Source: an uncultured Desulfobacterales bacterium (GTDB taxonomy: Bacteria > Desulfobacterota > Desulfobacteria > Desulfobacterales > JAFDCJ01). Taken from it: 14,327 nucleotides of DNA. Where the stretch lies: NCBI GenBank assembly GCA_945787595.1, contig CALZJV010000326.1, forward strand, positions 1 to 14,327. The letters run 5' to 3'. Shown piece after piece: positions 48-14,327 of this stretch (position 1 is its first letter; every line of letters starts with the position of its first letter). The translations under genes were made by a program, and so were the position numbers. Below the pieces are notes generated by a model. That model was given only the letters and a program-made list of their open reading frames with translations. It was not told where the DNA came from and did no database searches.

Positions 48-92
48 CCCTCAGGGGTGGACCAAAGCCGGGCCCTCTGGACCCGGATCTTT
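48..92 (+). terminator. Two adjacent hairpins followed by a T-rich tract
   Basis: Two GC-rich inverted repeats lie back to back. The first is CACCCC/GGGGTG around a three-base loop (about 48-62). The second is CCGGG-C-CC, loop TCT, GG-A-CCCGG (68-86), with one C/A mismatch. The second is followed by a T-rich stretch (88-99). This would suit a terminator for a gene left of the window, or a leader structure for the gene starting at 122, whose ribosome binding site begins about 20 bases later. Both readings are inference. Confidence 0.4.
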
Positions 93-121
93 ACTTTTTA
101 ATATAAATGAAGGAGGAAAGT

Positions 122-418
122 ATGGCGATTGAAGTTATGATTAGAAGGAGGGTCAAACAGGGCTTGCAGGCAAAAAAACTGGTTCCTCTAATTTTACAAA
201 TGCGAAGTCTAGCCATGCATCAACCAGGCTATATATCCGGCACCACTTTAAGCAACTTAGAACGACCAGAAGATTGTTTGGTCATAAGCAGATGGGAATC
301 AATTGACCATTGGAAGAGCTGGTTTCATAGTAGCAAAAGAGCTGAAATTGAGAGCAAAATTGAGACATTGGCTGGGAAAAAAGCGGAATACGAGTTCTAT
401 GCTCCAATGGTGCCCTGA
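122..418 (+). CDS. ABM-family (antibiotic biosynthesis monooxygenase-like) small protein
   Basis: This 98-residue protein has the size and pattern of the dimeric alpha-beta barrel ABM family (PF03992). It opens with a beta strand (AIEVMIRRRV), then a helix (KKLVPLILQMRSLAMHQPGYISGTTL), then the typical strand and helix of family members (CLVISRWESIDHWKSWFHS), and it ends with a strand (AEYEFYAPM). The start at ATG 122 is chosen over the in-frame ATG 107 because a strong AGGAGG (111-116) sits five bases before it and would lie inside the longer reading frame. Family members include quinol monooxygenases and haem-degrading enzymes, but many have no known reaction, so no substrate is assigned. 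It is probably cytoplasmic, having no signal peptide. It stands alone, convergent with the ankyrin gene that ends at 511. Confidence 0.8.
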   Translation: MAIEVMIRRRVKQGLQAKKLVPLILQMRSLAMHQPGYISGTTLSNLERPEDCLVISRWESIDHWKSWFHSSKRAEIESKIETLAGKKAEYEFYAPMVP

Positions 419-510
419 ACCGAAGCTGAAAAAGCTACTCGCATGCAGCCTGAATGTATCATCATTTTTTTCATCTCAAAGAAGCCGTTACTAATTGCTG
501 ATAACCGGTT

Positions 511-1047
511 TCATTCCCTGGCTCCATGACTCCGCAAAAGTGCTATCACCTTCTTTTGACCTCTTTCAGTGGCAAACTTCAAGGCGGTCGTGCCGATGTT
601 GGTCGTTGCGTCGACATCGGCCCCTTCGCGCAGAAGGAGTTCCACTACTTTCGTGTGACCCCTCCAGGAAGCCAGGATCAAGGGTGTCATGCCGTTCTCG
701 GCGCGGGCATTGATATCCGCTCCTGCGCTGAGGAGGCGTTTAACCTCTTCAAGTCTTCCAGCGTTGGCAGCTATCCTCAACGCCATGCTTTTATCTACGG
801 GATCATTCGCTTTTTTTTCAGAGTCTTTATTGACTTCCCTGTTCTGTTGCTTGACTGCGGTTTCATTTGCGACTTCATCAGAATTGCTCGCTTGGATTTC
901 TTCGGTTACTGCGGCCTCTTGGGGCGGGGCGGTGTTGCTATAATGTTTAATACCGTTTTCATCGGTCCAAGAATAAATACCAGCAATAAGGTTTGACGAA
1001 CAAAAGCAAATAACCAGAACGGCTAACGATATTTTTTTTAATTTCAT
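511..1047 (-). CDS. Exported DUF4124-ankyrin repeat protein
   Basis: This 178-residue protein begins with a Sec-type signal peptide (MKLKKISLAVLVICFC then SSNLIAG). A DUF4124-like segment follows at about residues 22-45, with the hallmark IYSWTDENGIKHYSN. A charged, glutamate- and lysine-rich linker runs to about residue 85. The rest is three ankyrin repeats (about 87-117, 118-150, 151-178), recognisable from LLSAGADINARAENG, TPLILASWRGHTKVVELLL and REGADVDATTNIGTTAL. Ankyrin repeats bind other proteins, and DUF4124 is a short N-terminal domain of exported proteins of unknown role. The start at 1047 is supported by GGAGG a few bases upstream on the minus strand. It is transcribed alone and convergent with the ABM gene. 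A periplasmic binding or scaffold role is inferred only. Confidence 0.85.
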   Translation of the reverse strand: MKLKKISLAVLVICFCSSNLIAGIYSWTDENGIKHYSNTAPPQEAAVTEEIQASNSDEVANETAVKQQNREVNKDSEKKANDPVDKSMALRIAANAGRLEEVKRLLSAGADINARAENGMTPLILASWRGHTKVVELLLREGADVDATTNIGTTALKFATERGQKKVIALLRSHGARE

Positions 1048-1458
1048 AACTCCTCCATATCCATATAGAATGATGACAATAAGAATTCCTTTTTGATCGA
1101 GCGCGTATAAAAAATATGGACATTACCAATAATTATTTATTCATCGGCATAATTCTGCTGATACTTTAGTTGGGAAAATCATAAGCGGGTAATGGGAAGT
1201 TCAGCAGCGTTTTGAAGGGGTAAATGATGAGGGAAGGAAGAGGGGTTTAGTGGCTTTTTATGTTAAGACAGTCTGCATTTCCCCAACCTTTCTCCAAGAT
1301 GGGCTCTGCTCAGTCTTGAACTTTCCGCTTAAATTTATCTATATTTTTCACATTCTGCCATCAACTCCGTTTTTTTTACCAGAGCTAATTGGCTGCTGTC
1401 AACCTGTTTTCGAGTCCATGGGTACCTGTTTTTAATCGATTTTCCAGCTTTTCATTTA
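1048..1458. other. Intergenic stretch without recognisable gene
   Basis: About 410 bases separate the divergent ankyrin gene and the higBA operon. The open frames here (for example 1250-1435) lack a ribosome binding site and show no recognisable protein pattern. The AT-rich part next to 1048-1140 presumably holds the promoter of the ankyrin gene, but I could not find a convincing pair of promoter boxes. No repeat or RNA gene was recognised. Confidence 0.6.
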
Positions 1459-1487
1459 TTGACATTTAACGTTTAACGTTATATGGT
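1459..1487 (+). promoter_or_regulatory. higBA promoter with embedded TTTAACG operator repeats
   Basis: A TTGACA -35 box (1459-1464) and a TATGGT -10 box (1482-1487) are separated by exactly 17 bases. The spacer holds two head-to-tail copies of TTTAACG (1465-1471 and 1472-1478), and AACGTT occurs in both copies, giving a near-palindrome. HigA-type antitoxins repress their own operon by binding such sites, so autoregulation by occlusion of RNA polymerase is likely. The expected transcription start, six or seven bases after the -10 box, falls at 1493-1494, on the toxin ATG. Confidence 0.75.
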
Positions 1488-1493
1488 TTGATC

Positions 1494-1793
1494 ATGCTTA
1501 ACTCGTTTAAAGACACAGAGACCGAAAAGGTTTTTAACCGATATTTTTCAAAGAATTCCCCACCAACGCTTCAGCGCAGCGCGCTGTTGCAGTTGCGATC
1601 ATTGAACCAGGCACGAAATATCAATGATTTGCATAACTCGCCATCGAATCATTTAGTGAAATTGCATGCGGATCGAAAAGGTAAATACAGTATAAGGATC
1701 AACAAGCAATGGAGAATCAGTTTTATATGGGAGGGCAATAATGCTTACGAGGTCGAAATTGCTCAATATCACTCCAATCGAGGTGCATCATGA
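1494..1793 (+). CDS. higB: HigB toxin (RelE superfamily mRNA interferase)
   Basis: This 99-residue protein matches the HigB / plasmid maintenance killer family. It has the usual opening SFKDTETEKVFN, a helical middle, and the conserved C-terminal block LHADRKGKYSIRINKQWRISF followed by YEVEIAQYH. HigB enzymes cut mRNA at the ribosome, halting translation when the antitoxin is lost. The basic and aromatic residues of the KGKYSIRINKQWRI block and the final EIAQYH are where the family keeps its active and RNA-binding residues. An in-frame TTG at 1488 is an alternative start, but ATG 1494 gives the family's usual N terminus and coincides with the predicted transcription start. No Shine-Dalgarno sequence is seen, so it is probably translated from a leaderless message. 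It overlaps higA by four bases (ATGA). Confidence 0.9.
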   Translation: MLNSFKDTETEKVFNRYFSKNSPPTLQRSALLQLRSLNQARNINDLHNSPSNHLVKLHADRKGKYSIRINKQWRISFIWEGNNAYEVEIAQYHSNRGAS

Positions 1794-2098
1794 AGAAAAA
1801 AAGAATGGCTCCTGTCCATCCAGGTGAAATCCTTCTGGAGCAATTCTTGAAACCGCTGGCGATGAGCCAGAACAAACTGGCTTTAGAAATCAGTGTGCCG
1901 CCGAGGCGCATCAACGAAATCGTCAAGGGCAGGCGAAGAGTCACAGCTGACACAGCCATGCGCCTGGCAAGGTTTTTTAAAATGACGCCTGAGTACTGGA
2001 TGGGTTTGCAGGCAGATTATGATCTTGATGTTGCCCGGGATGAACTGGAAGAGCGAATCAAGTATGAAGTACGACCTTGCGCTTCACGGATAACCTGA
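1790..2098 (+). CDS. higA: HigA antitoxin (XRE family DNA-binding protein)
   Basis: This 102-residue protein is a HigA / VapI-type antitoxin. The family start MAPVHPGEILLEQFLKPL is present at residues 6-23. It is followed by a helix-turn-helix of the XRE class (about 24-72, SQNKLALEISVPPRRINEIV then GRRRVTADTAMRLARFF) and the common tail EYWMGLQADYDLDVA. It should bind and neutralise HigB and repress the operon through the TTTAACG repeats upstream. Its ATG overlaps the higB stop codon as ATGA, so translation of the two is coupled. The order toxin then antitoxin is typical of higBA and opposite to most toxin-antitoxin pairs. Its last 10 or so residues are less typical of the family. fumC starts 27 bases downstream. 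Confidence 0.92.
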   Translation: MKKKRMAPVHPGEILLEQFLKPLAMSQNKLALEISVPPRRINEIVKGRRRVTADTAMRLARFFKMTPEYWMGLQADYDLDVARDELEERIKYEVRPCASRIT

Positions 2099-2125
2099 CC
2101 AAGCGGCAAAAGGGTAGGAAAAACG

Positions 2126-3535
2126 ATGGCCACGTCTCAACCAAAGATGCGAAAAGAAACTGACAGCATGGGAGAAATCCAAGTTCCTGCCGATCGTTAC
2201 TGGGGAGCACAAACCCAGCGATCGCTGATTTATTTTTCCATCGGCAAAGACCTTATGCCCATCGAAGCTGTCCATGCCATGGCAATTATCAAAAAGGCGG
2301 CGGCTCTGGCCAATCACAGACTCGGAAAGCTGTCAAAACAAAAGATGCAACTGGTCGTGCAAGCAGCCGATGAGGTCATCGAAGGCAAATTGGATGACCA
2401 TTTCCCCCTGCATGTGTGGATGACGGGCAGCGGGACTCAGTCCAACATGAACGTCAACGAAGTTATCGCCAACCGTGCTATCGAAATTGCCGGTGGTGAA
2501 TTGGGCAGCAAAAATCCCGTTCATCCCAATGACCATGTCAACATGTGCCAATCCTCCAACGATGCCTTTCCGACGGCTATGAATATTGCCGCCGCCAGAG
2601 CGATTAAAGAAGTCCTGATTCCCAAGGTTAAAAAACTGCGGGATGCCCTGGATCGCAAGGCCAAAGCCTGGGACGACATCGTCAAAATCGGGCGTACCCA
2701 CATGCAAGACGCCGTCCCGCTAACCCTCGGTCAGGAATTTTCCGGTTATGTGGGTATGCTTGACGATGATATCGAATGGCTTGAAGGGGCTTTGAAGGGG
2801 CTTTACAAGTTGGCTTTGGGTGGAACGGCGGTTGGTACCGGTCTAAATTCCAGCAAAGATTTTGCTAAAGAAGCCGTGCAGAATATCACCGCAATCACAG
2901 GCTTGAAGTTTGTACCGGCACCCAACCTGTTTGCCGTCATGGGCGCGCACGATGCTCTGGTACAGTCCAGCGCAACCATGAAAACACTGGCGGTTTCGCT
3001 GTACAAAATCGCCAATGATATCAGGTTGCTCAGCAGCGGACCGAGGGCTGGTTTGTATGAATTGAAGATTCCGCAGAATGAACCGGGCTCATCGATTATG
3101 CCTGGAAAAGTCAATCCCACCCAGTGCGAAGCCATGACCATGGTGGCCGCTCAGGTCATGGGGTATGACACTGCGGTCGCTTTTGCGGGTGCCGGCGGCT
3201 ACCTGGAGATAAATCTATATAAACCCATGATGATTTTCAACATTATCCAGTCCGTCCATATTCTGGCGGACGGCTGCAACAACTTCACAGACTTCCTGGT
3301 AGAGGGTACGGAGCCGAACCGCAAGAAGATTGATTGGTATTTGCATGAATCGCTTATGCTCGTCACATCCTTGAGTCCGGTGATTGGCTATGACAAGGCT
3401 TCTGAAATAGCGCACTTTGCCTTTGAAAATGAAGTGACACTCAAAGATGCGGCTTTAAAACTTGGCTATATCAGCGCTGAAAAATTCGATCAAATTGTCG
3501 ACCCATATAAAATGGTGCATCCGGACAGCTCATGA
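2126..3535 (+). CDS. fumC: Fumarate hydratase, class II
   Basis: This 469-residue enzyme interconverts fumarate and malate in the citric acid cycle, as an iron-free homotetramer in the cytoplasm. The length matches E. coli FumC (467). Family blocks are seen in order: [19 protein letters not shown] (100-118), [14 protein letters not shown] (133-146), [20 protein letters not shown] (189-208) with the catalytic His at 192, and the signature [16 protein letters not shown] (321-336) with the catalytic Ser at 322. [11 protein letters not shown] and [10 protein letters not shown] favour fumarase over aspartase or argininosuccinate lyase. The start ATG 2126 follows a weak purine-rich site (GGTAGG). 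The gap to higA is only 27 bases, so it may share the higBA transcript or have a promoter inside higA. In sulfate reducers fumarase also serves the oxidative or reverse citric acid cycle. Confidence 0.95.
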
Positions 3536-3546
3536 GACAAATTTAT

Positions 3547-3575
3547 TTGACACGCCAATTCCATTTTCCTATACT
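3547..3575 (+). promoter_or_regulatory. Near-consensus sigma70 promoter for the Sel1-like gene
   Basis: TTGACA (3547-3552) and TATACT (3570-3575) are separated by 17 bases, starting 11 bases after the fumC stop. Transcription would start near 3582. This gives a leader of about 36 bases to the GTG at 3618 and argues against the much earlier in-frame ATG at 3462 inside fumC. Confidence 0.75.
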
Positions 3576-3617
3576 ATCGTAAAAAATGAGGAATTTAAGA
3601 CTGTTAAAGGAAAGCCT

Positions 3618-4235
3618 GTGGAAAACTACCTTAATAACAAGAATCGTGTACGATGGTGGATCATAACAATTATAATTTTCATTGGTCTTGCCGTCATTGT
3701 TTTCGTCGGATTTTTTGTCTGGAATTCAGTCCGTACCGATAATAAGAAGATACAGGGAAAGATTGAAGCAGAGGTGGAAAAGCCCCCCGAGTTGCCGCGG
3801 ATGGCAAACCAGCCCCCAAAAATCAAGGCACCCGAGCCGGCCACCCCATCTTACGCACCGGATGCTCCCCTGCTTGAACAGGTGCGGGAAGCGATGAGAA
3901 AGGGAATCGATCCGGATGGTGCCCTGGCAATGGCGAAATCACTGCCGGACAAGCCGGAAAGGGCCGACGCAGCATTTATTTTATTGGAGTATGCCGCTGA
4001 AGCCGAAAATGGGGAAGCTGCTTTAGAAGTCGCAAGGTATTTTGATCCCACGTTTGCCGGGGACAGCGGGACGATTGTTAAAGATCCTGAGGTTGCCTAC
4101 GACTGGTATCAGTTGGCGTTGTCCCAGGGATTGCTCGAAGCCGATATTCACATTTCTAATCTTAGACAATGGGTTACAAAACAGGCGGCTGAAGGATCTT
4201 ATAAGGCACGCGAATTGTTAAAAAATTGGCAATAG
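3618..4235 (+). CDS. Membrane-anchored protein with Sel1/TPR-like C-terminal region
   Basis: This 205-residue protein starts with a short basic cytoplasmic tail and a strong single membrane span (about 13-35, WWIITIIIFIGLAVIVFVGF). A proline-rich linker follows (55-84), then a helical region (about 85-205). The helical part resembles Sel1/TPR repeats: ADAAFILLEYAAEAENGEAA, then VARYFDPTF, then AYDWYQLALSQG, then AAEGSYKARELLKNW. The expected topology is N-in with the helical domain in the periplasm. GTG 3618 is chosen because AAAGGAAAG lies six bases upstream and the strong promoter lies between the fumC stop and this codon. An ATG at 3462 is in frame but within fumC. Repeats of this kind usually mediate protein contacts. 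Its position 178 bp before the VWA gene suggests a partner in the same envelope system. No specific function is assigned. Confidence 0.75.
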   Translation: MENYLNNKNRVRWWIITIIIFIGLAVIVFVGFFVWNSVRTDNKKIQGKIEAEVEKPPELPRMANQPPKIKAPEPATPSYAPDAPLLEQVREAMRKGIDPDGALAMAKSLPDKPERADAAFILLEYAAEAENGEAALEVARYFDPTFAGDSGTIVKDPEVAYDWYQLALSQGLLEADIHISNLRQWVTKQAAEGSYKARELLKNWQ

Positions 4236-4266
4236 CTGTTTGGTGTCTCTTTAGAAATAGCTGTTT
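4231..4266 (+). repeat. 11-bp direct repeat at the Sel1-like gene stop
   Basis: AATAGCTGTTT occurs at 4231-4241 and again at 4256-4266, a spacing of 25 bases. The first copy contains the stop codon TAG of the Sel1-like gene. This may be a small duplication or chance. The rest of the gap to 4414 shows no clear promoter. Confidence 0.4.
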
Positions 4267-4413
4267 TCTTAAATGTCTACCCAGGCGAATATTTTAATCC
4301 TCGAAATACTGATTGTATTCCTGTGATTAATCCTCCGGCGGCGGATGGTCCTCCTTGAACTTGTAGCAACTATCTCATTTCTGAGCGGACACTATTTAAC
4401 AATGGAGTATGAA

Positions 4414-6417
4414 ATGAAGGTTAAAAAAGTGATGGCCCCAAAGTCAGCCAGAGTGATTTCATTAATGGCAGTTTGCCTTGCCTGTCTGGTGCTCATTTGG
4501 ACAAGCGCCGTAACGGCCCAGCTGCGCAATCCTCTGCTCATACCCGGTAAGCGGACTTTGTATCAAAAGGTGATAACCCATCCGGGTGCAAAATTGTTTG
4601 CCATCGATGGTGACTCCGTGAAGGTTCTGGAAAATTGGATTAAGCCGTTTACGGTGTATTACATTTATGATCGGGCTTCAGTGGCTGGTGAACCCTGGCT
4701 GGAGGTCGGACTCTCGAGCACCGAGGGCTCTATCGGTTGGATCAATGGGACGAAAGCATCCGACTGGAACCAGGCCTTGACTCTCGTTTTTACGGAAAGA
4801 ACCGGTCGCCGTCCGGCGCTATTTTTTAGGAATCTGAATTCTCTTCAAACATTAGCCGGCTCGCCGACTCCGCGAAAAGGAACATCTGATCTCGTATCTC
4901 AATTTAGCGCGATTCAATCCGGGGAAATTTCACAGCCGGATAATTTTCCACTATTGGCAGTTGAACCACCCAGAGAGGCTGTATCTGAAAAGCGGTTCTA
5001 CCTAATACCCATTTTTAATGCACTCGAGCTTTTTGAAGGCATTAAATTTCTGGAAGTGGCCTCCATAGATCCCGGATCCGGTCTATTACCAGTGGATGCG
5101 GAATTAAAAACAGCCATTGTATTTGTCATCGATACCACTATTTCCATGAAACCATACATTGAACGGACCCGGGAGGCTGTTCGCAAAATTTATGATGCTA
5201 TTGAAGAAGCCGGCCTGTCCGATAAGGTCGCTTTCGGACTGGTTGCCTACCGTAACAGCACCCGTAAAACATCGGGTCTTATCTATGAAGCCAGAGTGTT
5301 GTCTGATTTACGGGACGGACGTAAACGCAAACAGTTTGAATACGCCCTGGGCCATGCAGAGGAAGCCAAAGTCTCCACGCATTCCTTTAATGAAGACGCC
5401 TTTGCCGGGCTAAAGACGGCGCTTGACAAACTTTACTGGGCGCCGTACCAGTCCAGACTGGTTTTTCTTATTACGGATGCAGGTGCGATCCGTAACGACG
5501 ATCCTTATTCCTCCACGGGGATGAACGAGGCAGAGATCGCCGACCTGGCGGCAGCCAAAGGGATCAAGATTTTTGCCTTACATCTTAAAACGCCCGCAGG
5601 TAAAAAGCGAAATAACCACGATTATGCTGAAATCCAATACCGAGTTTTGACCGGGCATAGCGATCCGAATATCGGGGATCTATATGTGCCCATCTCAGCC
5701 GATCGGGCTGCTGCCGGTGTGCAGGGCTTTGGGGGTGTGGTTGAAGGTGTCGGCGCTCAGATGGTTGAATTGGTGAGAGCCACAGGTGCCGGTGAGCGTC
5801 TGGTTCTACCGGATGCATCTGTCGCTCAAACGAAGGATGCCGTGCAGGAAGCCATACGCAAAGCTGCCATCCTGGGGTATGCCATGCAGCTGGAGTTTTT
5901 AGGGGCCCGTGGCGGTGTCAAATCTCCGGAGGTAGTCAAAGCCTGGGTTTCAGACATGGATCTTGCCAGACCCGACACGCCAACGTTTAAAGTGGGTGTG
6001 CTGTTAACAAAAAATCAACTCAGCGACTTAAATTGGCGTCTAGAGGTGGTGCTTGATGAGGCCCAGAGAACCAAGCGGACAGGGGCCAAAGATTTCTTTA
6101 ACAGTATCCTGTCGGTGGCCGCCCAAACATCCCGCGATCCCAACCAGTTCAGCCGAAAACCAAACCAGAACCTGGGTGAGCTGGGTATTCTGGCCGAATT
6201 TCTCGACGACTTGCCATACCGCAGCAACATTATGCGACTCACGGAGGAGGATTGGTACCGTTTAAGTCTGGGGGAGCAGCAGGCAATTGTTAATAATTTA
6301 AAATCTAAGATCAAAAGATATACTTCAATCCATGATGATGTGGCCAACTGGACAAGCTTCGGGGCAAAGGAACCGGGAGATGCCGTTTACAGAGTGCCGT
6401 TGAGTTTGATGCCGTAA
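4414..6417 (+). CDS. Secreted VWA-domain protein resembling the PpkA C-terminal half (no kinase domain)
   Basis: This 667-residue protein has a signal peptide ending near residue 35 (SAVTA before QLRNP). An SH3-like region follows (about 48-125, with PWLEVGLSSTEGSIGWING), then an extension reading WNQALTLVFTERTGRRPALFF. The VWA domain spans about 232-430: strand TAIVFVID, a MIDAS-type motif DTTIS (240-244), KVAFGLVAYRNS, and LVFLITDAGA with the third metal-site Asp near 355. The SH3-like/extension/VWA order and the blocks KIFALHLKTP and YAEIQYRVLTG match my memory of the periplasmic half of PpkA from type VI secretion clusters. The N-terminal Ser/Thr kinase of PpkA is absent. The first MIDAS Ser is Thr here. 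ATG 4414 is preferred: GGAG lies six bases upstream, and a clean signal peptide follows. In-frame ATGs at 4345 and 4402 are alternatives. A periplasmic sensing role is inferred. Confidence 0.8.
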   Translation: MKVKKVMAPKSARVISLMAVCLACLVLIWTSAVTAQLRNPLLIPGKRTLYQKVITHPGAKLFAIDGDSVKVLENWIKPFTVYYIYDRASVAGEPWLEVGLSSTEGSIGWINGTKASDWNQALTLVFTERTGRRPALFFRNLNSLQTLAGSPTPRKGTSDLVSQFSAIQSGEISQPDNFPLLAVEPPREAVSEKRFYLIPIFNALELFEGIKFLEVASIDPGSGLLPVDAELKTAIVFVIDTTISMKPYIERTREAVRKIYDAIEEAGLSDKVAFGLVAYRNSTRKTSGLIYEARVLSDLRDGRKRKQFEYALGHAEEAKVSTHSFNEDAFAGLKTALDKLYWAPYQSRLVFLITDAGAIRNDDPYSSTGMNEAEIADLAAAKGIKIFALHLKTPAGKKRNNHDYAEIQYRVLTGHSDPNIGDLYVPISADRAAAGVQGFGGVVEGVGAQMVELVRATGAGERLVLPDASVAQTKDAVQEAIRKAAILGYAMQLEFLGARGGVKSPEVVKAWVSDMDLARPDTPTFKVGVLLTKNQLSDLNWRLEVVLDEAQRTKRTGAKDFFNSILSVAAQTSRDPNQFSRKPNQNLGELGILAEFLDDLPYRSNIMRLTEEDWYRLSLGEQQAIVNNLKSKIKRYTSIHDDVANWTSFGAKEPGDAVYRVPLSLMP

Positions 6418-6583
6418 GGGCTCGCTTAAAATAACTTTAACGATATTGATTGTCTTTGAGTCCATATTCCATGTCGTTGCCAAGGGTGCATGCTGAAACA
6501 GAAACCCTTTAAAGCGCTTTGATTATGTCCCCGACATCTTCGAAATTACCGCTGAGTTCATTTAATCCCCGTTACATATTATT

Positions 6584-6612
6584 TTGCCGCCTTTAGCCTT
6601 TAATGCTATAAT
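6584..6612 (+). promoter_or_regulatory. Promoter (extended -10) upstream of the ABC ATPase
   Basis: TTGCCG (6584-6589) is followed after 17 bases by a perfect TATAAT (6607-6612), itself preceded by TGC, an extended -10. The start would be near 6619, about 43 bases before the GTG at 6662. The ATPase, permease and TagR-like genes may therefore be transcribed independently of the VWA gene, which ends 245 bp upstream of the ATPase start. Confidence 0.65.
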
Positions 6613-6661
6613 CAGACCTAATGCGAAAAAATGAGACAATATAACCAGGGAGACTTCCATC

Positions 6662-7375
6662 GTGGTCGACAGCCAAAATAAATCTTCGCCAAAAGAAAAG
6701 AAACAAGCGGTGACGCCCGGGACCGTTATCGCTAAAGAAGAAGAGGTCTTTCGTTTGAGCAATGTCACCAAAAGGTGGCCCGGGGTTCAGGGCTTTACCC
6801 TGGAGGTGCCGGAGCTGGTTGTTCGTCGGGGAGAAAAAGTAGCACTTGTTGGGTTGAGCGGATGCGGCAAAAGCACTTTGCTCGACCTGCTTGCCATGGT
6901 CTTACGACCCGACGCCGCCGGGCAGTTTGTCTTTTTTAGCCAGCAGGGACAGAAGCAGGATGTTATGGACGCCTGGACTTCAATCCGCGAAAATATAGGC
7001 ATTAGCCTGCTGGGTCTCGGCTTGCCGGTAAATGACGCCGTTGAGGACATGGCCAAGCGCCTGCACATCGAGCGACATTTGAACAAACGCCCAGGCCAGC
7101 TCTCGGTCGGAGAACGTCAGAGAGTCGCCATTGGTCGGGCTATGGCACATCAGCCTTCTTTGGTGATTGCCGATGAGCCCACCGCCTCTCTTGATCCGAT
7201 AAACGCTGAAGATATCATGGACCTGTTCAGTGCTCTGGCAGACGAAAAAGGTGTGACCCTGATCATGGCCACCCATGACTGGGGGAATCTGGGCACACGC
7301 GGATTCCGTCATGTGCAGTTTGATTTGAAACAGGAGGCCGATCACGGCACAGTGAAAGCCAAGGTTTACGGATAA
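6662..7375 (+). CDS. ABC transporter ATP-binding protein, TagT/LolD-like, Q-loop apparently missing
   Basis: This 237-residue ATPase has Walker A GLSGCGKST (64-72), the signature LSVGE (147-151), Walker B LVIADEP (167-173), a D-loop SLD (176-178) and the switch His 205 (MATHDW). The overall type is the LolD/FtsE/TagT group that works with FtsX-fold permeases, and the permease is the next gene. GTG 6662 is the start, with CAGGGAGA nine bases upstream. The Walker A to signature distance is 83 residues, against 104 in E. coli LolD as I recall it. The missing stretch is where the Q-loop glutamine should be: TSIRENIG runs directly into the helical region that normally follows the loop. The frame is intact. 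It may bind ATP but couple poorly to the permease. It would sit on the cytoplasmic face of the inner membrane. Confidence 0.85.
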   Translation: MVDSQNKSSPKEKKQAVTPGTVIAKEEEVFRLSNVTKRWPGVQGFTLEVPELVVRRGEKVALVGLSGCGKSTLLDLLAMVLRPDAAGQFVFFSQQGQKQDVMDAWTSIRENIGISLLGLGLPVNDAVEDMAKRLHIERHLNKRPGQLSVGERQRVAIGRAMAHQPSLVIADEPTASLDPINAEDIMDLFSALADEKGVTLIMATHDWGNLGTRGFRHVQFDLKQEADHGTVKAKVYG

Positions 7376-7444
7376 GCAGTAGGTGTATCCATTCAGACGG
7401 CGGGAGACCCGGGCATATCGAAAAGGCACAAATTTCAGAGCAAT

Positions 7445-7575
7445 AAATGAGCTAAAATTTAAAATGAACTAAAATGAGCTAAAATTATGGTATTCTGTCA
7501 ATTTTTAAAACAGATAGAGCGTAGCGATTCCTTAATTTTAGTCATTTTAGGCAATTTAGTTCACTTTTGGCATTT
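7445..7575. repeat. AT-rich imperfect inverted repeat (MITE-like element)
   Basis: The gap between the ATPase and permease genes holds a structured element. The left arm contains TGAGCTAAAAT, TGAACTAAAA and TGAGCTAAAAT (7448, 7465, 7475), with a perfect 15-base direct repeat at 7445-7459 and 7472-7486. The right arm carries the complement of related words: AATTTTAG, TCATTTTAGGC and TTTAGTTCA (7534-7563). The centre (7490-7530) reads GGTATTCTGTC, then AAAACAG, then GCGTAGCGATTCC. No coding capacity is seen. It resembles non-autonomous repeats dispersed in Desulfobacterota genomes, from memory. It separates genes that are normally adjacent. Confidence 0.6.
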
Positions 7576-7628
7576 GTTTATTCCGCTATATCAGTCTGTT
7601 ATAACAGGAGGCCGGAGAAAAGATAAAT

Positions 7629-8769
7629 ATGCACACTTTTCAAACGATTTTTCGTCTGGCGTTGAGAGACTACTTCTATGAGCGATTGCTTTCCGCATGT
7701 GCAATAATGGGGTTGGCAGCCGTTCTGGCACCATTGCTGGTGCTTTTCGGAGTTAAGAGCGGTATTATCAACACCATGTCGGATCGCCTGCTGCAAGATC
7801 CCCGGAACAGAGAGATTTCTCCGGTTGGCAGTGGCCGCTACGGGGCGGACTGGTTTTCGACTCTGGGCAAACGCAGCGATGTTGATTTTGTGGTTCCACA
7901 GACCCGCTCCATTGCGGCCAGCATGATCCTTTATAAGAAAGATGCCGCGAAACCGCGTACACTGGTGGTGTCTCTCATTCCCACCGATGATGGTGATCCG
8001 CTGTTGCTGCAATACGGCCGTATCCCGACCGAAATCAGGCAGGTGGTGTTGTCTGAGACAGCCGCGCGCAAACTCAATGTAAAAGTAGGTCAGGATATCA
8101 TCGGAAAGGTAGGCCGGTCGGTGGCCGGGGCAAAGGAGCAGGTCATGGTGAATCTGCAAATTGCAGACGTGTTGCCCCATGAAGCCTTCGTTCGAGAGGC
8201 AGCTTTTAGTGAGACCCTCCGGATCAAGGGTTTATCCCAGTTTCAGGCTTTATGCCCGCTCAATTTATGATGTGTCCCTACTGCGCAACATGTTGATAGA
8301 TCAGGGTCTGGAAGTATATACCAAGGCCGAGGAGATCGAAACGGTCAAAAGCCTCGATCGGTCGTTTAATCTTATTTTTGGTCTTATCGCTGTTGTTGCC
8401 GTACTGGGTTACTTTGCTTCAATGGTAAGCAGTGTTCTTGCCAATGTAAACCGAAAAAGCCGCTATCTCGGTATTTCCAGCCTGATTGGCTTTTCAACCG
8501 GCAACATCGTCTGGTATCCTATCTTGCAGTCCATCGCGACGGTTGTATTTGGTTTTACGACAGCCGTCATCCTATACAAGACAGCTGAGGTTATGATTAA
8601 CAGGCTGTTTAACGAATATCTGGCAAGCGGTGAATATGTATGCCGATTATCCTTCGTACACATGCTGCTGGTCCTGGTATTGATGCTGGTACTTTCCATC
8701 ATGGCCTCGGCTTATGGTGCTTTCAAGGTCTCAAGGATTGAGCCATCAGAGGTCATCCGTGAAGTATAG
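7629..8769 (+). pseudogene. FtsX/LolE-fold ABC permease, TagS-like, frameshifted
   Basis: Two overlapping frames encode the halves of one permease. The first (7629-8270) has a membrane helix at about residues 22-45 (SACAIMGLAAVLAPLLVLFG) and a periplasmic domain (SPVGSGRYGADWFSTLG, later VVLSETAARKLNVKVGQDI). The second, read one base further on and ending at 8769, continues with FRLYARSIYDVSLLRNML and the FtsX-type membrane region: FNLIFGLIAVVAVLGYFASM, a span near TVVFGFTTAVILY, and a last span before AYGAFKVSRIEPSEVIREV. This matches the TagS layout. The frames must join between about 8199 and 8229. Joined, they give about 379 residues. The first frame ends at TGA 8268. ATG 7629 has AGGAGG (7606-7611) or GGAG (7614-7617) upstream. 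A sequencing or assembly error cannot be excluded. Confidence 0.75.
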
Positions 8770-8820
8770 GCCGCTTTAAATTATTGAATATTTTCGATTG
8801 AATTCGACCTTGGAGTATTT

Positions 8821-10668
8821 TTGATAAGATACAAGAGAAATAATTTTCCATTTTCTAAACCTCTGCAAGTTCTGCGTTTTTCCGAACAACTACGTTTTCT
8901 GTTATTCCCTGCCCTGCAGGTGACCGTGATTTTGGGTCTGTTGGCGGTTAGTCAGCTCCTTTACGCCTGGGATTGCGTATCCGGACAGAAATCGATTACG
9001 CCACGGATGCCCAGCCTGGCGGCAGCGGTCAATCCAAACCCCTCAGAGGCGGACATTGAACTGCCGATGCCCTGCGGCGGCAAACTGATTTTGCATCATG
9101 TTTGTGCCCCTGCCCAGGGCTATTTCGGGGATCTGCGACTTGATCTCGGCTGTAAAGACTGCGGTCGACGAAATCAAAGTTTCATGGAGAGCAAACATGG
9201 GGGAGGGATCTCCGGACCCTTCACCCTTGGCGATATGCCGGATGGCTGGCGTTTGAAACTCACTCAACTGGCTGACAGCGGTGACGGCCGATGCCCACCG
9301 GCCGATGATGCGGCCAATACCGGTTTTTATTATTTCATCAGCAAATATGAAATTACCAATTTTCAATGGAAGTCCATAATGGAAGAGGGATGTCCGGGGG
9401 ACGACGGTCAATTCAGCAATGATGATCCGCGGCCGAAGATCGGTATATCCTGGTTTGATGCGGTCGAATTTACTCGAAAATACACCGAATGGCTTATAAA
9501 AAATGCACCCGAAGCGCTGCCTGGATTTGCCCTGAATCGTTTCGGTTTTATCCGGCTGCCTACCGAGGCAGAATGGGAGTATGCGGCCCGGGGAGGTCAC
9601 CGGGTCACTGAATATCAGATGAACGAAGATGAATTTTTTCCATTAAATGGTAGACCGCTGGCGGACTTTGCTGTGTTTACCGACGGGGAGGCCGCTAAGC
9701 CCCAGGAAAGGCTGGCCTGGATCGGTACGAAATGTCCCAATCCTTTAGGGCTTTTCGATACAGCCGGCAATGCTGCTGAAATGGTGTTGGAGCCATTCCA
9801 CTTTTCCCTGGGCTATCGACTTCATGGCGCCGCCGGTGGCTTTATCATCAAAGGCGGCAGCTTTCGCAAAAGCCTGGCTGAAATCATGCCTGGAAGACGG
9901 GAAGAACAGCCTTTTTTTCTGGCCGATGGTGCCTTTCGCAGCGCTGATATTGGCTTCCGTGTCGTTCTGTCCGGGATTTTGACATCCCAGGATCGCTGGG
10001 AGAGCTTTGATCAGCAGTGGGCGGTCCTGGGATTGCCGCAGCTATCGCCCCGGGCAATGGGTGTATCTTCGGGTTCCAGCACCGGCATGGACCGCAACAA
10101 TGACCCGATCACCGAGATTGACCGCCTGATGAGCGCAGCCGGCGATGAGGCTGAAAAAAAGAAACTTCTTCTATTACGGAAAGTATTCAAACAGAGCAAA
10201 GTATTGCTAAAAGAGCAGAAAACAGAAGCCATAAAGGGTATCATCAGAAGTGCGGTTCTCACAGCAGAATCCCTGCAGGATTATGCCACCCGGCGAAAAG
10301 TTGTTATCAATGGAAATATAAGCCTGGAAAAGATGAAAGCGGAGACAGTGTCTACATCAGTCAACGAGGCATTGGAGCGTGGTATCGCCAGGTCAAAGGA
10401 ATCGCTTCGTATGCTCGATGCAGCCATGGATCATTTCACAAAATTCTACCTTGACAGGGTCAGAGAAAGTCAAAGTTATACCGAAGAACTTTTTGATCGC
10501 CAGCTCGATCGAGTTTCACAAGAATTGAGTCTCGATGAAGATTTCGTCCGGAGTTTGAAAAACAGACTGGCTACATTCAAGAGACATGTGTCGCTCTATA
10601 GACGCCAGTCCGGAGACATTAGCCCGGAATTCATTCAAAATGATATCCTTTCCAACAACCCCCTTTAA
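8821..10668 (+). CDS. TagR-like protein: exported FGE-sulfatase (SUMF1) fold with helical C-terminal extension
   Basis: This 615-residue protein has a signal peptide or anchor at about 25-49 (FLLFPALQVTVILGLLAVSQ). A cysteine-containing N-terminal segment follows (DIELPMPCGGKLILHHVC, then YFGDLRLDLGCKDC). The formylglycine-generating-enzyme fold (about 165-385) is marked by YYFISKYEITNFQW, IRLPTEAEWEYAARGG (244-259), PLGLFDTAGNAAEMV and the closing GGSF with GFRVV. The catalytic cysteines of true FGEs are absent between GGSF and GFR, so it is probably a binding protein. Residues 430-600 are predicted helical or coiled-coil. TTG 8821 is the start: TGGAG lies five bases upstream and no ATG precedes residue 63. 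In P. aeruginosa, TagR acts in the periplasm to promote PpkA activation. Here the neighbours are the matching ATPase and permease. It ends 20 bases before a terminator. Confidence 0.8.
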   Translation: MIRYKRNNFPFSKPLQVLRFSEQLRFLLFPALQVTVILGLLAVSQLLYAWDCVSGQKSITPRMPSLAAAVNPNPSEADIELPMPCGGKLILHHVCAPAQGYFGDLRLDLGCKDCGRRNQSFMESKHGGGISGPFTLGDMPDGWRLKLTQLADSGDGRCPPADDAANTGFYYFISKYEITNFQWKSIMEEGCPGDDGQFSNDDPRPKIGISWFDAVEFTRKYTEWLIKNAPEALPGFALNRFGFIRLPTEAEWEYAARGGHRVTEYQMNEDEFFPLNGRPLADFAVFTDGEAAKPQERLAWIGTKCPNPLGLFDTAGNAAEMVLEPFHFSLGYRLHGAAGGFIIKGGSFRKSLAEIMPGRREEQPFFLADGAFRSADIGFRVVLSGILTSQDRWESFDQQWAVLGLPQLSPRAMGVSSGSSTGMDRNNDPITEIDRLMSAAGDEAEKKKLLLLRKVFKQSKVLLKEQKTEAIKGIIRSAVLTAESLQDYATRRKVVINGNISLEKMKAETVSTSVNEALERGIARSKESLRMLDAAMDHFTKFYLDRVRESQSYTEELFDRQLDRVSQELSLDEDFVRSLKNRLATFKRHVSLYRRQSGDISPEFIQNDILSNNPL

Positions 10669-10688
10669 TGCATTTTTAAATAAAAAAA

Positions 10689-10714
10689 GCATTCCATCAT
10701 GTACGATGGAATGC
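10689..10714. terminator. Bidirectional intrinsic terminator
   Basis: A perfect 10-bp stem, GCATTCCATC (10689-10698) and GATGGAATGC (10705-10714), encloses the loop ATGTAC. A run of A residues precedes it (a T tract for the minus strand) and CTTTATTT follows it. It can end both the TagR-like transcript and the convergent cold-shock gene. Confidence 0.9.
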
Positions 10715-10743
10715 CTTTATTTAAAAATTAAACAGTAAGGGAT

Positions 10744-10944
10744 TTATTGGACTGTGACATTCACTGCCGCGGGACCCTTCTGGCCCTGCTCTATGTCAAA
10801 GGTTACCCGATCGCCCTCATAAAGAGATTTGAAACCACTTGCATTGATCCCTGAGTGATGAACAAATACATCCGGGCCATCTTCCTGCTCAATGAAGCCG
10901 TAGCCCTTGCTGCTGTTGAACCATTTTACAATACCATCAGCCAT
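10744..10944 (-). CDS. Cold-shock domain protein (CspA family)
   Basis: This 66-residue protein is a complete single cold-shock domain. It has [18 protein letters not shown] with RNP1 (KGYGFI), DVFVHHSGI with RNP2 (VFVHH), and the usual ending [11 protein letters not shown]. The fold is a five-stranded beta barrel that binds single-stranded RNA and DNA and acts as an RNA chaperone in the cytoplasm. The length is exactly that expected. The start has a strong AGGAGG a few bases upstream on the minus strand. It ends next to the shared terminator and has an upstream leader of over 100 bases with a hairpin, as is common for csp genes. Whether it is cold-induced cannot be seen, since many family members are constitutive. 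Confidence 0.95.
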
Positions 10945-11029
10945 AGTGACATCCTCCTTTCAAAAAATTCTCATAGTCCCATACTTCAGGTGCCGATATG
11001 ACAGATGATCTATCCTTTAGAACGAAACC

Positions 11030-11052
11030 GTCCCGCCAATTAAGAACGGGAC
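11030..11052 (-). promoter_or_regulatory. Hairpin near the 5' end of the cold-shock mRNA leader
   Basis: GTCCCG (11030-11035) pairs with CGGGAC (11047-11052) across an 11-base loop. On the minus strand this lies about 10-30 nt into the predicted 5' leader of the cold-shock gene. It could stabilise the message or change with temperature. That role is inference by analogy with csp leaders. Confidence 0.4.
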
Positions 11053-11068
11053 TTTATTGATTACTCTA

Positions 11069-11096
11069 ATAATAACATCATTTAGAGAAAAATCAA
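11069..11096 (-). promoter_or_regulatory. Probable promoter of the cold-shock gene
   Basis: On the minus strand, TTGATT (11091-11096) and TATTAT (11069-11074) are separated by 16 bases. A start near 11062 would give a leader of about 117 nt before the ATG at 10944. The region is AT-rich and also lies upstream of the divergent radical SAM gene. Confidence 0.5.
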
Positions 11097-11287
11097 GGCA
11101 ATTATTTATGCTTTTTATCATAAAATCAACGGTTGTAGACCATTGAACCCTGTGGTATGGAGAATCTGCCTGTGGTTGTCAGAAAAAACGCAGCTATTCG
11201 ACCGTACTAAAGATGTTCAAATTTTACGCTAAGACTTCAATTCGCCGCCGACGGAAGATGGGTCGTTTTCTCAAGTAAGGAAATGCT

Positions 11288-12826
11288 TTGCGAGTGAACA
11301 GAAGGAAAGTTCTGTTAATCCATCCGCCGGTGATCCGGCCCTGTGAGCCGCCGCCGGGTATTGCGAAACTGGCCGGGGCGCTGAAACGGCATGGTGTCGA
11401 ATACAACATCATCGACGCCAATCTTGAAGGGCTCCTGTTTATCTGTCAAAGTCCCCTTGCTGCCCGTGATACCTGGACGCGCAGGGCCGTCAACCGGGTC
11501 GAGCGAAATTTGGAGACTTTGATGCAAGCGGCAGCATATCAAAATCTGGACCGTTACAAACAGGCCGTCTTTGAGCTGAACCGGGTGTTGACGATGCAGG
11601 ACCGCTGCGGGAGCACCGAGGTGAGTCTTGCCAATTATCAGGACCGTAATCTTTCCCCCGTAAAGAGCAACGATCTGATTCGGGCATTTGAGTTTCCAGA
11701 AAAAAATCCGTTTTTCCCGTATTTTGAAAAACGGCTGAGTGCGGTCATGGAAAATGATCGCCCTGGGGTGGTCGGTTTTTCACTGAATTTTCTAAGTCAG
11801 GCCCTGTGCACCTTTGCCATGATTGGGGCTTTGAGGCGGTTTGATCCGACCGTTCGCATTATCTTGGGCGGCGGGCTGATCACCTCCTGGATGAGACGGC
11901 CGGGATGGAGAAATCCCTTTGAAGGAATCATCGACGAGCTGGTGGCCGGAGAAGGGGAGGGGGCTCTTTTATCAATGCTGGGTGTGGACAGCGTTGCCGC
12001 ATCAACCCTCTCCGATTTTGGTAAATTTTTACCACTGCCGTATTTTTCCCCCGGATTTATTTTGCCTTACAGCGCCTCCAGCGGCTGTTATTGGCGTCGC
12101 TGCGCCTTTTGCCCGGAACGGGCGGAGACAAATCCCTACCGGCCAATCACCCCTCCACTTGCCCTTTCACAACTCAAATCCCTGATATATTCTCTGCGGC
12201 CGGTCCTGGTGCATTTCACTGATAACGCCTTGAGTCCGGCATTGCTGAAAGCTCTATGCCGGGAACCCTGCGCTGCCCCATGGTATGGTTTTGTGCGGAT
12301 TACTCAGCAATTGGCGGATCCGGATTTTTGTAAGGCCCTAAAACAGTCCGGTTGTGTAATGCTGCAAATCGGCCTGGAGTCAGGTTCTCAGAAAGTGCTC
12401 GATGGTTTCTGCAAAGGCATCGATTTGAAGATCGCGCAAAAGGTGCTTGAAAACCTGAAACATGCAGGGATCGCCGCTTATGTCTATCTGCTTTTCGGCA
12501 CTCCCTGGGAAACTGAATCGGATGCGGCAAAGACGCTCGATTTTTCGGTTAAGAACAGCGAATCCATCACCTTTTTAAACCTGGCCATTTTTAATCTACC
12601 GGCCTTTGGTCCACAAAAAGATGCGCTGGATACGACGCCCCTGGACACCGGTGATTTGTTCCTTTACCGGCGCTTTGAGCATCCGACGGGGTGGCATCGG
12701 CAGCATATCCGTAAGTTTTTGGACGACAAGTTCAGGCGGCATCCAGCCATTGCCCCGATCATGCGCCACGACCCACCGGTGTTTACCTCCAATCATGCAC
12801 CCTTTTTTAGGCCTTCCCTGCTGTAA
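11288..12826 (+). CDS. Radical SAM protein with N-terminal B12-binding-like region
   Basis: This 512-residue protein begins like B12-binding/radical SAM proteins (KVLLIHPPVIRPCEPPPGIA, then LKRHGVEYNIIDAN). PGVVGFSLNF and VRIILGGGLIT (158-198) are consistent with the Rossmann-like half. The radical SAM core starts with the cluster motif SGCYWRRCAFC (C267, C272, C275), spaced CX4CX2C rather than the usual CX3CX2C. Later core features are LVHFTDNALSPALL, MLQIGLESGSQKVLDGFCKG (a typical GxESG element) and AYVYLLFGTPWET. I see no DxHxxG cobalamin motif, so B12 binding is doubtful. Residues 50-150 are a helical insertion. The start is TTG 11288, with AAGGA six bases before it. A GTG at 11294 is less well spaced. 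The reaction and substrate are unknown. It stands alone, divergent from the cold-shock gene. Confidence 0.85.
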   Translation: MRVNRRKVLLIHPPVIRPCEPPPGIAKLAGALKRHGVEYNIIDANLEGLLFICQSPLAARDTWTRRAVNRVERNLETLMQAAAYQNLDRYKQAVFELNRVLTMQDRCGSTEVSLANYQDRNLSPVKSNDLIRAFEFPEKNPFFPYFEKRLSAVMENDRPGVVGFSLNFLSQALCTFAMIGALRRFDPTVRIILGGGLITSWMRRPGWRNPFEGIIDELVAGEGEGALLSMLGVDSVAASTLSDFGKFLPLPYFSPGFILPYSASSGCYWRRCAFCPERAETNPYRPITPPLALSQLKSLIYSLRPVLVHFTDNALSPALLKALCREPCAAPWYGFVRITQQLADPDFCKALKQSGCVMLQIGLESGSQKVLDGFCKGIDLKIAQKVLENLKHAGIAAYVYLLFGTPWETESDAAKTLDFSVKNSESITFLNLAIFNLPAFGPQKDALDTTPLDTGDLFLYRRFEHPTGWHRQHIRKFLDDKFRRHPAIAPIMRHDPPVFTSNHAPFFRPSLL

Positions 12827-13061
12827 GACCCTCCGCCGATAGACCGCATCTAAGGCATCAGATGACCTCCCGCATCGGTAACGCTAGCGAAAGAACATCT
12901 TCTTTGTATCTGTGGCAACCTTCCAGAGGCGGACAAGTCCTTGACAGTTGCTCAACGATAAATTACTTTTGACACACTATCAGATGAATCATTGGCCGGA
13001 ATATAGGTCATCTGCTCTTAAGAAAAAGACGCTCGGATTTTGAACACTTCATAGCATTTCA

Positions 13062-13898
13062 CTACCGCTGGTAATCCCAGCGTCTGAAATGGTCTTTGCG
13101 CATCTTGTCTTTCTCGGCCGGGCTGGCACCCCAGTTGCCTTTATAGATGGCTCCTTCCCAATCGCCATACAGTGGATTTGGAAACACAATAAACTTCTTG
13201 CCCCACTCATTTTTGATTTTATCCACTTCTGCAGATCGGACGTCAATCGGCTTTTTGCGGAATACACTGAGAAAATCGTTCAGGTTATCTCCCAGCAGAA
13301 GGGCAATCTCATAATCTTTTGCCACCATATCCCGGCGTGGCTGCTTGTCGCTGGTTTTGACACGAAACAACATATGCTTTTTGTCCACATAGGGAAAGCC
13401 CAGCGCCTTTAATTTTTTTTCGGCACCTTCGGCAAAGACCATTTTGGTATTGCTGACATAAAAAGTTTCAACGCCCTTTTCTTGGGCGTAATTAAAAAAT
13501 TCAACCGCGCCCGGAACCGCTTTGGCCTTGGCGGATGCGATCCATGGACCCCAGGTCTTGGAAGAATATCCAAAATCCTGGCCAACTAGCCAAGCCTGAT
13601 AAGCTGAGTTGTCAGTAATCGTTTCATCCATGTCGGTAATAACGGCCACCGGCTTGGATCCCGAATAGGAAGCCAGAAAACTATCGAGATTCATCCGGGC
13701 CAGGTTATAGGACTGATAACATAGGGCACGGTATTCAGCTGACGTCTGGACCCAATTAATAGCCAAAACGGACTGCTCGTTCAGATCCTGCGTGGTATAA
13801 GCAGGTCCCTTGGCCTGGATCTGACCGCCAACGGCGATTAATGCCACTGCCACCAAAACCATCATCGTTAAACTGACTTTTCCTCTGATTTTTTTCAC
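13062..13898 (-). CDS. Exported HAD acid phosphatase, class C / lipoprotein e(P4) family
   Basis: This 278-residue protein carries a Sec signal peptide (about 1-29, ending GGQIQA). Family members remove phosphate from nucleotides and related esters in the periplasm or outer membrane. Motifs: AINWVQTSAEYRALCYQSYN near residue 46, typical of e(P4)-like proteins; HAD motif I DMDET (89-93) with nucleophile D89 and D91; motif II VSN (148-150); a basic stretch KQPRRD (185-190); and motif IV GDNLND (203-208). Members are often lipoproteins, but no lipobox cysteine is seen at the signal end, so a soluble periplasmic form is expected. The start is GTG 13898, with AAGGAGGAG about seven bases upstream. 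It is convergent with the radical SAM gene, and a palindrome sits in its presumed promoter. Confidence 0.9.
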   Translation of the reverse strand: MKKIRGKVSLTMMVLVAVALIAVGGQIQAKGPAYTTQDLNEQSVLAINWVQTSAEYRALCYQSYNLARMNLDSFLASYSGSKPVAVITDMDETITDNSAYQAWLVGQDFGYSSKTWGPWIASAKAKAVPGAVEFFNYAQEKGVETFYVSNTKMVFAEGAEKKLKALGFPYVDKKHMLFRVKTSDKQPRRDMVAKDYEIALLLGDNLNDFLSVFRKKPIDVRSAEVDKIKNEWGKKFIVFPNPLYGDWEGAIYKGNWGASPAEKDKMRKDHFRRWDYQR

Positions 13899-13983
13899 GG
13901 AATCTCCTCCTTACTTTTAAGGGGTGTTTGTGGAAGATAATAATGCGTAAGTTCGCGTGCAATTCGGACGCTAAGTCCTTCGA

Positions 13984-14012
13984 TCCATAAATACGATACT
14001 GTATTTATTCAA
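13984..14012 (-). promoter_or_regulatory. Putative promoter with embedded palindromic operator for the phosphatase gene
   Basis: On the minus strand, TTGAAT (14007-14012) and TATGGA (13984-13989) are 17 bases apart. A perfect inverted repeat, ATAAATAC (13987-13994) and GTATTTAT (14001-14008) with a six-base centre, covers the spacer and touches both boxes, as a repressor site would. The leader would be about 80 bases. The regulator is not identified. Confidence 0.5.
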
Positions 14013-14077
14013 AACCGAAAACCTGGTTCTCTGGGCCTGGATTCTTTAATCATCAAGAGACCGTGCCATTTTGGCGC

Positions 14078-14137
14078 AGTTTCATACAAGGTTTCGGGTG
14101 TCAGTAAAAATCGAATCCTGAATCCTCGTATGAAACT
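14078..14137. repeat. 14-bp inverted repeat, one mismatch
   Basis: AGTTTCATACAAGG (14078-14091) is the reverse complement of CCTCGTATGAAACT (14124-14137) apart from one base. The 32-base interval contains GGGTGTCAG. It is intergenic, upstream of the phosphatase gene, and the role is unknown. It may be part of a dispersed repeat with the element that follows. Confidence 0.55.
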
Positions 14138-14148
14138 TCATTCATTTA

Positions 14149-14221
14149 GACAGGATTTACAGGATTAACAGGATTTTTTTGTTTAGTATGGCTGTATCCT
14201 GTCCATCCTGTTGATCCTGTC
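14149..14221. repeat. ACAGGAT-triplet inverted repeat (REP-like)
   Basis: The left arm (14149-14174) holds three copies of ACAGGAT at a nine-base period. The right arm (14196-14221) holds three copies of ATCCTGT at the same period. The arms match at 22 of 26 positions, with mismatches only in the two-base spacers between copies, and are separated by 21 bases. Similar triplet elements are common intergenic repeats in environmental bacterial genomes, from memory. The remaining sequence to the window end shows no gene. Confidence 0.75.
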
Positions 14222-14327
14222 AAAAATAGAAATTCCAATTGAAAATACGTCACTGTAAATGCGAATCGAAGCACTATGATACCAACCTGTGCGCTGACTA
14301 CGGTCGCAAGATGACTGGTGATGCTGC
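14222..14327. other. Window end without recognisable gene
   Basis: No open frame with a ribosome binding site, RNA gene or further repeat was recognised here. Together with 13899-14221 it forms an intergenic region of over 400 bases containing the operator-like palindrome and two inverted repeats listed separately. Confidence 0.5.

Follow-up and report, generated by a model that had tools for sequence, protein, structure and literature searches.

A stretch of 14,327 nucleotides from an uncultured Desulfobacterales bacterium (contig CALZJV010000326.1 of assembly GCA_945787595.1, positions 1 to 14,327 of the forward strand), here called the window, carries five genes that probably represent one copy, with local damage, of a stand-alone cassette that is conserved among relatives and predicted to be a periplasmic and inner-membrane sensing unit devoid of an output part. 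The cassette lies on the + strand and encodes, in order, a Sel1-like bitopic membrane protein of 205 amino acids (aa) (3618-4235, GTG start), hereafter the slot protein, a VWA protein (about 4402-6417), a TagT-like ABC ATPase (6662-7375), a TagS-like permease of the FtsX/MacB type (7629-8769, in two overlapping frames), and a TagR-like FGE-fold protein (8821-10668). Its identity and modularity can be stated with high confidence. One and the same gene slot before the VWA gene apparently holds a kinase in the type VI secretion system (T6SS), a part of 140-220 residues in srf operons, or almost nothing in the window.

The assignment of the ATPase, the permease, and the FGE-fold protein to TagT, TagS, and TagR, put forward in an original prediction made on this DNA, is sound at the sequence level and better supported than Lol or FtsE, because of the identities to proteins of the T6SS cluster of the Tistrella mobilis plasmid pTM1. 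This cluster is ordered tssM-tagF-PP2C phosphatase-kinase-VWA-ABC ATPase (TagT)-permease (TagS)-FGE protein (TagR), the kinase and the VWA part being separate genes. By BLAST, the window proteins are 33% (VWA), 38% (TagT), 43% and 30% (two TagS pieces), and 29% (TagR) identical to those of Tistrella, with matches spanning most of each window protein. The resemblance of the VWA protein to PpkA, also predicted, is borne out by its relative in the same T6SS-linked set. No kinase domain is found in the slot and VWA proteins among the Pfam and NCBIfam matches, and the label "serine/threonine-protein kinase PpkA", given by one source to many such VWA proteins, is misleading in the absence of this domain. 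No Pfam match was obtained for the long proteins P0222 and P0224-P0227, which are therefore considered to contain no kinase.

The VWA protein consists of an N-terminal signal or anchor helix, an N-terminal beta part, a VWA (integrin I-like) domain, and a C-terminal helical part. The residues of the metal ion-dependent adhesion site and the VWA fold are both found, the structure being predicted from 51 sequences; a model from 13 close sequences (predicted local distance difference test score of 57) was set aside. A sequence search of solved structures with this protein returned chance-level matches only. TagR has an N-terminal signal or anchor, an FGE-fold domain at aa 171-382 (Pfam FGE-sulfatase, 94.4 bits), and a C-terminal helical part, and it is 29-32% identical to T6SS- and srf-linked TagR proteins. 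It thus carries a domain of the FGE family, but the cysteine pair of FGE catalysis is not seen after the KGGS motif of the window TagR, in an alignment without an FGE of known structure at this place.

That the ATPase and the permease belong to an ordinary Lol- or MacB-like ABC transporter, standing by chance among unrelated neighbours, is very improbable. FtsE, LolD, ADOP, and LolCE are the best NCBIfam names for the ATPase and for the permease, scanned as two pieces, and the solved ATPases closest in sequence are ABC ATPases of a general kind, LolD and FtsE among them. However, the NCBIfam scores fall well short of the curated cut-offs (FtsE, 113.9 vs 264.85; LolD, 110.6 vs 307.75; LolCE, 24.6 vs 362.45), and the Pfam MacB_PCD match to the permease is also below its family cut-off, so that Lol or MacB identities, which the original prediction had named as counter-evidence, were not found. 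The linkage to the VWA gene, conserved in Desulfobacterota, Gammaproteobacteria, and Alphaproteobacteria in the same cassette order, already contradicts this explanation. As in the mechanotransmitting systems FtsEX-EnvC, MacB, and LolCDE, an ATPase is combined with an FtsX-type permease having a large periplasmic part, whereas the scores stay below the equivalog cut-offs and the partners are VWA, Sel1-type, and FGE-fold proteins.

The slot protein was first regarded as an added component. Profile searches and alignments instead tie it to the tail of a T6SS-linked kinase and to a protein of srf operons. In the window, it comprises about 14-15 residues, one transmembrane helix, and a Sel1-type domain with an FDP/YDP motif, a topology deduced from hydropathy; its Pfam Sel1 match is below the cut-off, and its GTG start at 3618 agrees with a 205-aa homologue in locus L038 (L- and G-numbers are the labels of this analysis for loci and genomes, respectively). 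The srf operons of Desulfovibrionaceae, and those on Gluconobacter, Klebsiella, and Lelliottia plasmids, have in front of VWA a gene for a protein made up of an N-terminal part, one transmembrane helix, and a Sel1-type tail. The window protein aligns with the tail and helix of this protein, the N-terminal part being absent. By hydropathy, 11 window-type loci have the first residue of the helix at 8-28. For the window and L037, it is at about 15 when counted from the homologous start and at 67 in the longest frame, and the longest frame of L048 gives 96. In the srf group, the 21 loci whose gene is uncut give 141-219; Srf genes are in view in 20 of these, L061 being the exception. In the Tistrella T6SS kinase, the helix occupies residues 321-339.

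A hidden Markov model trained on 51 slot-protein tails, with no kinase among the proteins used, matches the tail of the Tistrella T6SS kinase at residues 378-467 with E=1.7e-14 among 4601 open reading frames (ORFs). The slot gene and this kinase gene occupy the same operon position. Generic Sel1 proteins score low (27 bits for the best domain in a checked case), whereas the kinase tail reaches 51 bits. The slot domain was also detected in 39 of 120 listed relatives of the Tistrella kinase (E of 1.9e-12 or better), the other 81 being at 0.024 or worse or unmatched; these relatives were picked by whole-kinase similarity, irrespective of T6SS linkage, so that 39/120 is not a rate. To judge from these alignments, the Sel1-like protein is the kinase-less counterpart of a membrane protein carrying a PpkA-type kinase or a srf head. 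Five kinase/VWA pairs may be linked, as the longest contig has an identical length for both members (e.g., 325154 and 1842870, Inquilinus).

One scan of genome contigs yielded 54 loci, among which 15 have a window-type VWA gene (L037-L050 and L067), with the slot gene beside it in 14. As foreseen among the checks of the original prediction, the neighbourhood is conserved, the cassette order recurring across these deltaproteobacterial loci. Nine loci show all five genes, namely L037, L038, L040, L045 (whose TagR gene runs off the contig), and L046-L050. No TagR gene lies close by in L039, the stretches of L042-L044 stop too soon, and the VWA gene of L067 is broken. Its two halves, L067 and L081 (CP070697.1), lie about 170 kb apart on one chromosome, by inversion or misassembly. 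L041 is a second cassette of the L038 genome, reduced to VWA and TagR. No SrfA, SrfB, or SrfC was found at the window-type loci, and SrfB is absent from all 14 deltaproteobacterial genomes behind them; three known srfB records (L031, L058, L065) and the genomes of L078 and L086 were matched as controls. An extra gene family in at least three of 16 deltaproteobacterial stretches was not found, with the proviso that longest-ORF pruning can miss genes. The loci L086 (G162), L081, as the second half of the L067 gene, and a "long" type are left out of these stand-alone counts.

The Desulfovibrionaceae-type loci (L051-L077 without L067) have SrfB or SrfC in view in 17 of 26 cases. Seven of the remaining nine are cut, whereas L054 and L061 show neither gene despite long upstream flanks. 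Both belong to the srf clade and are possible intermediates, and L061 retains a long, headed slot protein.

In Gammaproteobacteria, a strong VWA match (E below 1e-100) was found in 23 of 276 genomes, G165 as centre counted, and surroundings were compared for 20 of them. Sixteen are stand-alone and four srf-associated (L123-L126), two of these (L124 and L126) having SrfB elsewhere in the genome. The slot gene stands beside VWA in 15 of the 16 stand-alone cases, the exception being the 5-kb contig L130, and one further gene cluster recurs in three of the 16 stretches. SrfB was found in none of the 16 genomes, although genomes with known srfB were matched as controls. G245, which has a VWA match and was outside the comparison of surroundings, has neither SrfB nor VipB. 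A T6SS cluster immediately outside the window, also named beforehand as counter-evidence, did not appear: the Tistrella T6SS reference proteins have no match beside the window-type or the gammaproteobacterial stand-alone loci.

Within the window, the predicted lack of T6SS structural genes, Fha, PppA, and kinase agrees with Pfam and NCBIfam scans of ten stretches, in which no kinase, FHA, or PP2C family is listed and no T6SS family exceeds its cut-off. The only T6SS family seen is a TssR_VWA match of the VWA protein (17.1 vs 25.7 bits). Four small genes were left out of these scans, namely HigB, HigA, the cold-shock gene, and 107-418.

A quick maximum-likelihood tree was built from 75 VWA proteins with the "long" type as outgroup. 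Fifteen loci that were cut, broken, without VWA, or near-duplicates were left out, and L022 and L023 are also outside as they lie on the same contigs as L037 and L048. The 15 window-type rows form one clade (Shimodaira-Hasegawa-like approximate likelihood ratio test, 96), sister to 21 Desulfovibrionaceae-type rows (100 for the 36 together), 16 of which have Srf genes in view. A separate clade (100) unites 15 of the 16 gammaproteobacterial stand-alone rows; its grouping with two srf copies from Alphaproteobacteria, one copy from a Thiodictyon plasmid, and the T6SS copy of Tistrella is weak (86). The remaining row, L130, joins the window-type and Desulfovibrionaceae-type groups. The tree has 14 weak inner branches, and its T6SS row is long. 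A single clade of both stand-alone groups (15 + 15 rows) was rejected by the approximately unbiased test (p-AU 1.5e-6). Because of this rejection, two lineages or more, as read from the tree, either acquired or retained the stand-alone state. The original prediction of a stand-alone system built from T6SS control parts thus holds as to the stand-alone state, found in the window and its relatives, but its derivation from T6SS parts finds no support in the tree, where the sister group is the mostly srf-linked one and not the T6SS copy.

The ABC pair of the window is damaged, which was overlooked in the original prediction. In comparison with L037, the closest relative (its contig is also that of G001), whose aligned DNA pieces are 90-98% identical, the window TagT gene lacks 84 nt near 6978, i.e., 28 residues including the Q-loop, whereas Walker A, signature, and Walker B patterns are present. 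The TagS gene lacks 77 nt near 8207, which shifts the frame and leaves frames 7629-8270 and 8161-8769. Both genes are open in L037/G001, where the permease is a single 405-aa frame, and TagS of the relatives is an open protein of about 405 aa. The Q-loop pattern is missing from the window protein alone among 13 window-group TagT proteins, by simple patterns strict enough for four srf-type TagT (L032, L055, L059, L126) to fail as well. No exact microhomology is found at the break points as aligned. The lesions may be real decay through recent mutations or an assembly error, one assembly providing the data.

These lesions, the wide intergenic gaps of the window cassette, and the mostly srf-linked sister group would fit a relic of a srf (or T6SS) locus whose effector part is gone and which is now being lost. 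This explanation is nevertheless rather improbable. In the relatives, the cassette genes have open frames, stand close together for the most part, and evolve under purifying selection, with ratios of nonsynonymous to synonymous substitution of 0.05-0.25 in all five-gene comparisons but one (TagS, 0.40, inflated by the window frameshift). Mean column identity across 13 VWA proteins is 75%, and a second stand-alone group stands apart on the tree.

The stand-alone cassette most likely works as a periplasmic machine that is powered by its ABC pair and serves envelope sensing or repair, its output being surmised. As the slot head counts about 15 residues and the VWA protein is seemingly periplasmic, with its signal-like helix, TagT would be the only cytoplasmic catalytic part. 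With TagT as the sole cytoplasmic enzyme, the likeliest mode would be inside-out, that is, ATP-driven periplasmic work with envelope sensing or repair as its task, in the manner of FtsEX or MacB; this mode is held tentatively and is favoured over a kinase acting in trans or a relic. ATP cycles of TagT would move the periplasmic domains of TagS. Together with the VWA protein, TagR, and the Sel1-type domain, these domains may form one complex, and this could react to damage of the outer membrane in the way known for TagQRST-PpkA of Pseudomonas aeruginosa. T6SS clusters use such a unit upstream of Fha, and srf operons carry it beside SrfABC. It is conceivable, in a broader proposal advanced with caution, that the slot-VWA-TagT-TagS core is an autonomous and widespread ABC-powered periplasmic machine, T6SS and srf being docking variants with different cytoplasmic heads, and that its headless form works inside-out and free of phospho-signals.

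An outside-in sensor, detecting envelope damage and passing the signal in trans to a kinase or T6SS encoded elsewhere, is unlikely but the most serious rival. VipB is encoded elsewhere in five of the 14 deltaproteobacterial and three of the 16 gammaproteobacterial stand-alone genomes, and partners can lie far apart, as in Thiocapsa (G165) with SrfB about 180 kb from VWA. Against this, VipB is unmatched in 22 of the 30 genomes carrying the stand-alone module (nine and 13, respectively), including the nearest genome G001 (79% complete), and SrfB in all 30. Moreover, strong slot copies occur once in 12 of the 14 deltaproteobacterial genomes and twice in G151 and G153, none of them in a kinase-sized frame. 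The second slot gene of G151 (L146, 8972-9568) has no VWA in its stretch and stands beside other ABC transporter ATPase genes. A weakly slot-like 475-aa protein of G346 was considered as partner kinase and rejected, being a Sel1-repeat protein without the look of a kinase (27 bits).

Several points weigh against ATP-driven periplasmic action by a complete stand-alone unit. In the eight genomes with VipB, a T6SS link in trans may exist, and a kinase without a slot domain could act in this way. TagQ, needed in P. aeruginosa, was not found beside the cassette in a comparison of limited sensitivity and without a genome-wide search. TagR falls outside the minimal core because a full match is absent in 14 of the 16 gammaproteobacterial stand-alone genomes (at least 200 bits in G282 and G432; best of the others, 81 bits). 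G162, a Desulfarculus metagenome-assembled genome whose VWA protein (L086) is 57% identical and cut by the contig end, does contain SrfB. Many genomes are drafts of mostly unstated completeness, which makes single absences weak. The ABC pair of the window itself looks non-functional, and the envelope role of the stand-alone copies is drawn from the P. aeruginosa parallel.

In P. aeruginosa, TagQRST-PpkA is described in PMC11881912 as sensing outer-membrane damage, PpkA being thought to act via dimerising, and the local triggering of H1-T6SS assembly through this pathway is called unresolved there. TagR works with the C-terminal part of PpkA, according to PMC3224232. The cassette shares with the threonine phosphorylation pathway of H1-T6SS (TagQRST-PpkA-Fha-PppA) relatives of TagT, TagS, TagR, and VWA, and its slot protein has a periplasmic tail in common with a T6SS-linked kinase, a comparison made via Tistrella and not P. 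aeruginosa PpkA. Unlike this pathway, it has no kinase head, and no Fha, PppA, TagF, or T6SS locus is seen beside it. The srfABC operons with Tag genes display the same slot-VWA-TagT-TagS-TagR order, and their Desulfovibrionaceae group is the sister clade, whereas window-type loci have no SrfA, SrfB, or SrfC and their slot protein is devoid of the 140-220-residue N-terminal part. Such operons are already in print for host-associated Deltaproteobacteria, without T6SS (PMC3608642), and for Xenorhabdus (PMC6950479), and they also occur on Klebsiella and Lelliottia plasmids. No description of a stand-alone headless form or of a head swap was found in the literature searched, many subscription papers being out of reach. 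A naturally occurring form free of kinase and weapon, and in Gammaproteobacteria mostly free of TagR as well, points to the core parts and makes the ABC/VWA/Sel1 mechanism testable apart from T6SS. With a head swap at one gene, the output of copies not yet characterised could simply be guessed from the head.

A class-level search with the window protein matched nine of 147 genomes (G001 as centre counted), four of the window type and five of the "long" type. VipB is found in none of the former and in four of the latter. The "long" type (L026-L030, L035) has a TagS of about 550-640 aa and is followed, in several cases, by a gene that resembles a glycine-zipper lipoprotein gene. No strong slot match was obtained in G101 and G037, the two genomes tested. 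Beside L035, the one of these loci compared with the T6SS references, no match to them was found. VWA genes occur in 125 plasmid records, 114 of them from Klebsiella, and in the one Klebsiella record read (L031) the gene lies within a srf-Tag operon. On the Thiodictyon plasmid pTs485 (L033, L036), the cassette is split, with VWA-TagT at about 70 kb and TagS-TagR at about 338 kb.

The cassette is flanked, as predicted, by fumC (class II fumarase, 2126-3535, + strand; TIGR00979, 719 bits) and by a cold-shock protein gene (10744-10944, - strand; sequence read by eye). Among the genome-contig loci compared, L037 and L038, the closest relatives, are the only ones with the fumC flank in view. Rfam and tRNA scans of the window were empty. 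Beside fumC, a short pair at 1488-2098 resembles, by eye, a HigB/RelE-type toxin and an XRE-type antitoxin, the latter also kept in L037. A protein with DUF4124 and ankyrin repeats is encoded at 511-1047 (- strand). Downstream, a radical SAM protein (11288-12826) has a B12-binding match below threshold and a PhpK-type family as best curated match (63 bits vs a cut-off of 600), and a relative of it is located downstream in L038. A 5'-nucleotidase/acid phosphatase of the e(P4) family is encoded at 13062-13898 (- strand). In L129 (G340), a fumC relative (42%) lies from 1530 onward, a few kb upstream of a gammaproteobacterial stand-alone cassette, a likeness to the window that is probably due to chance.

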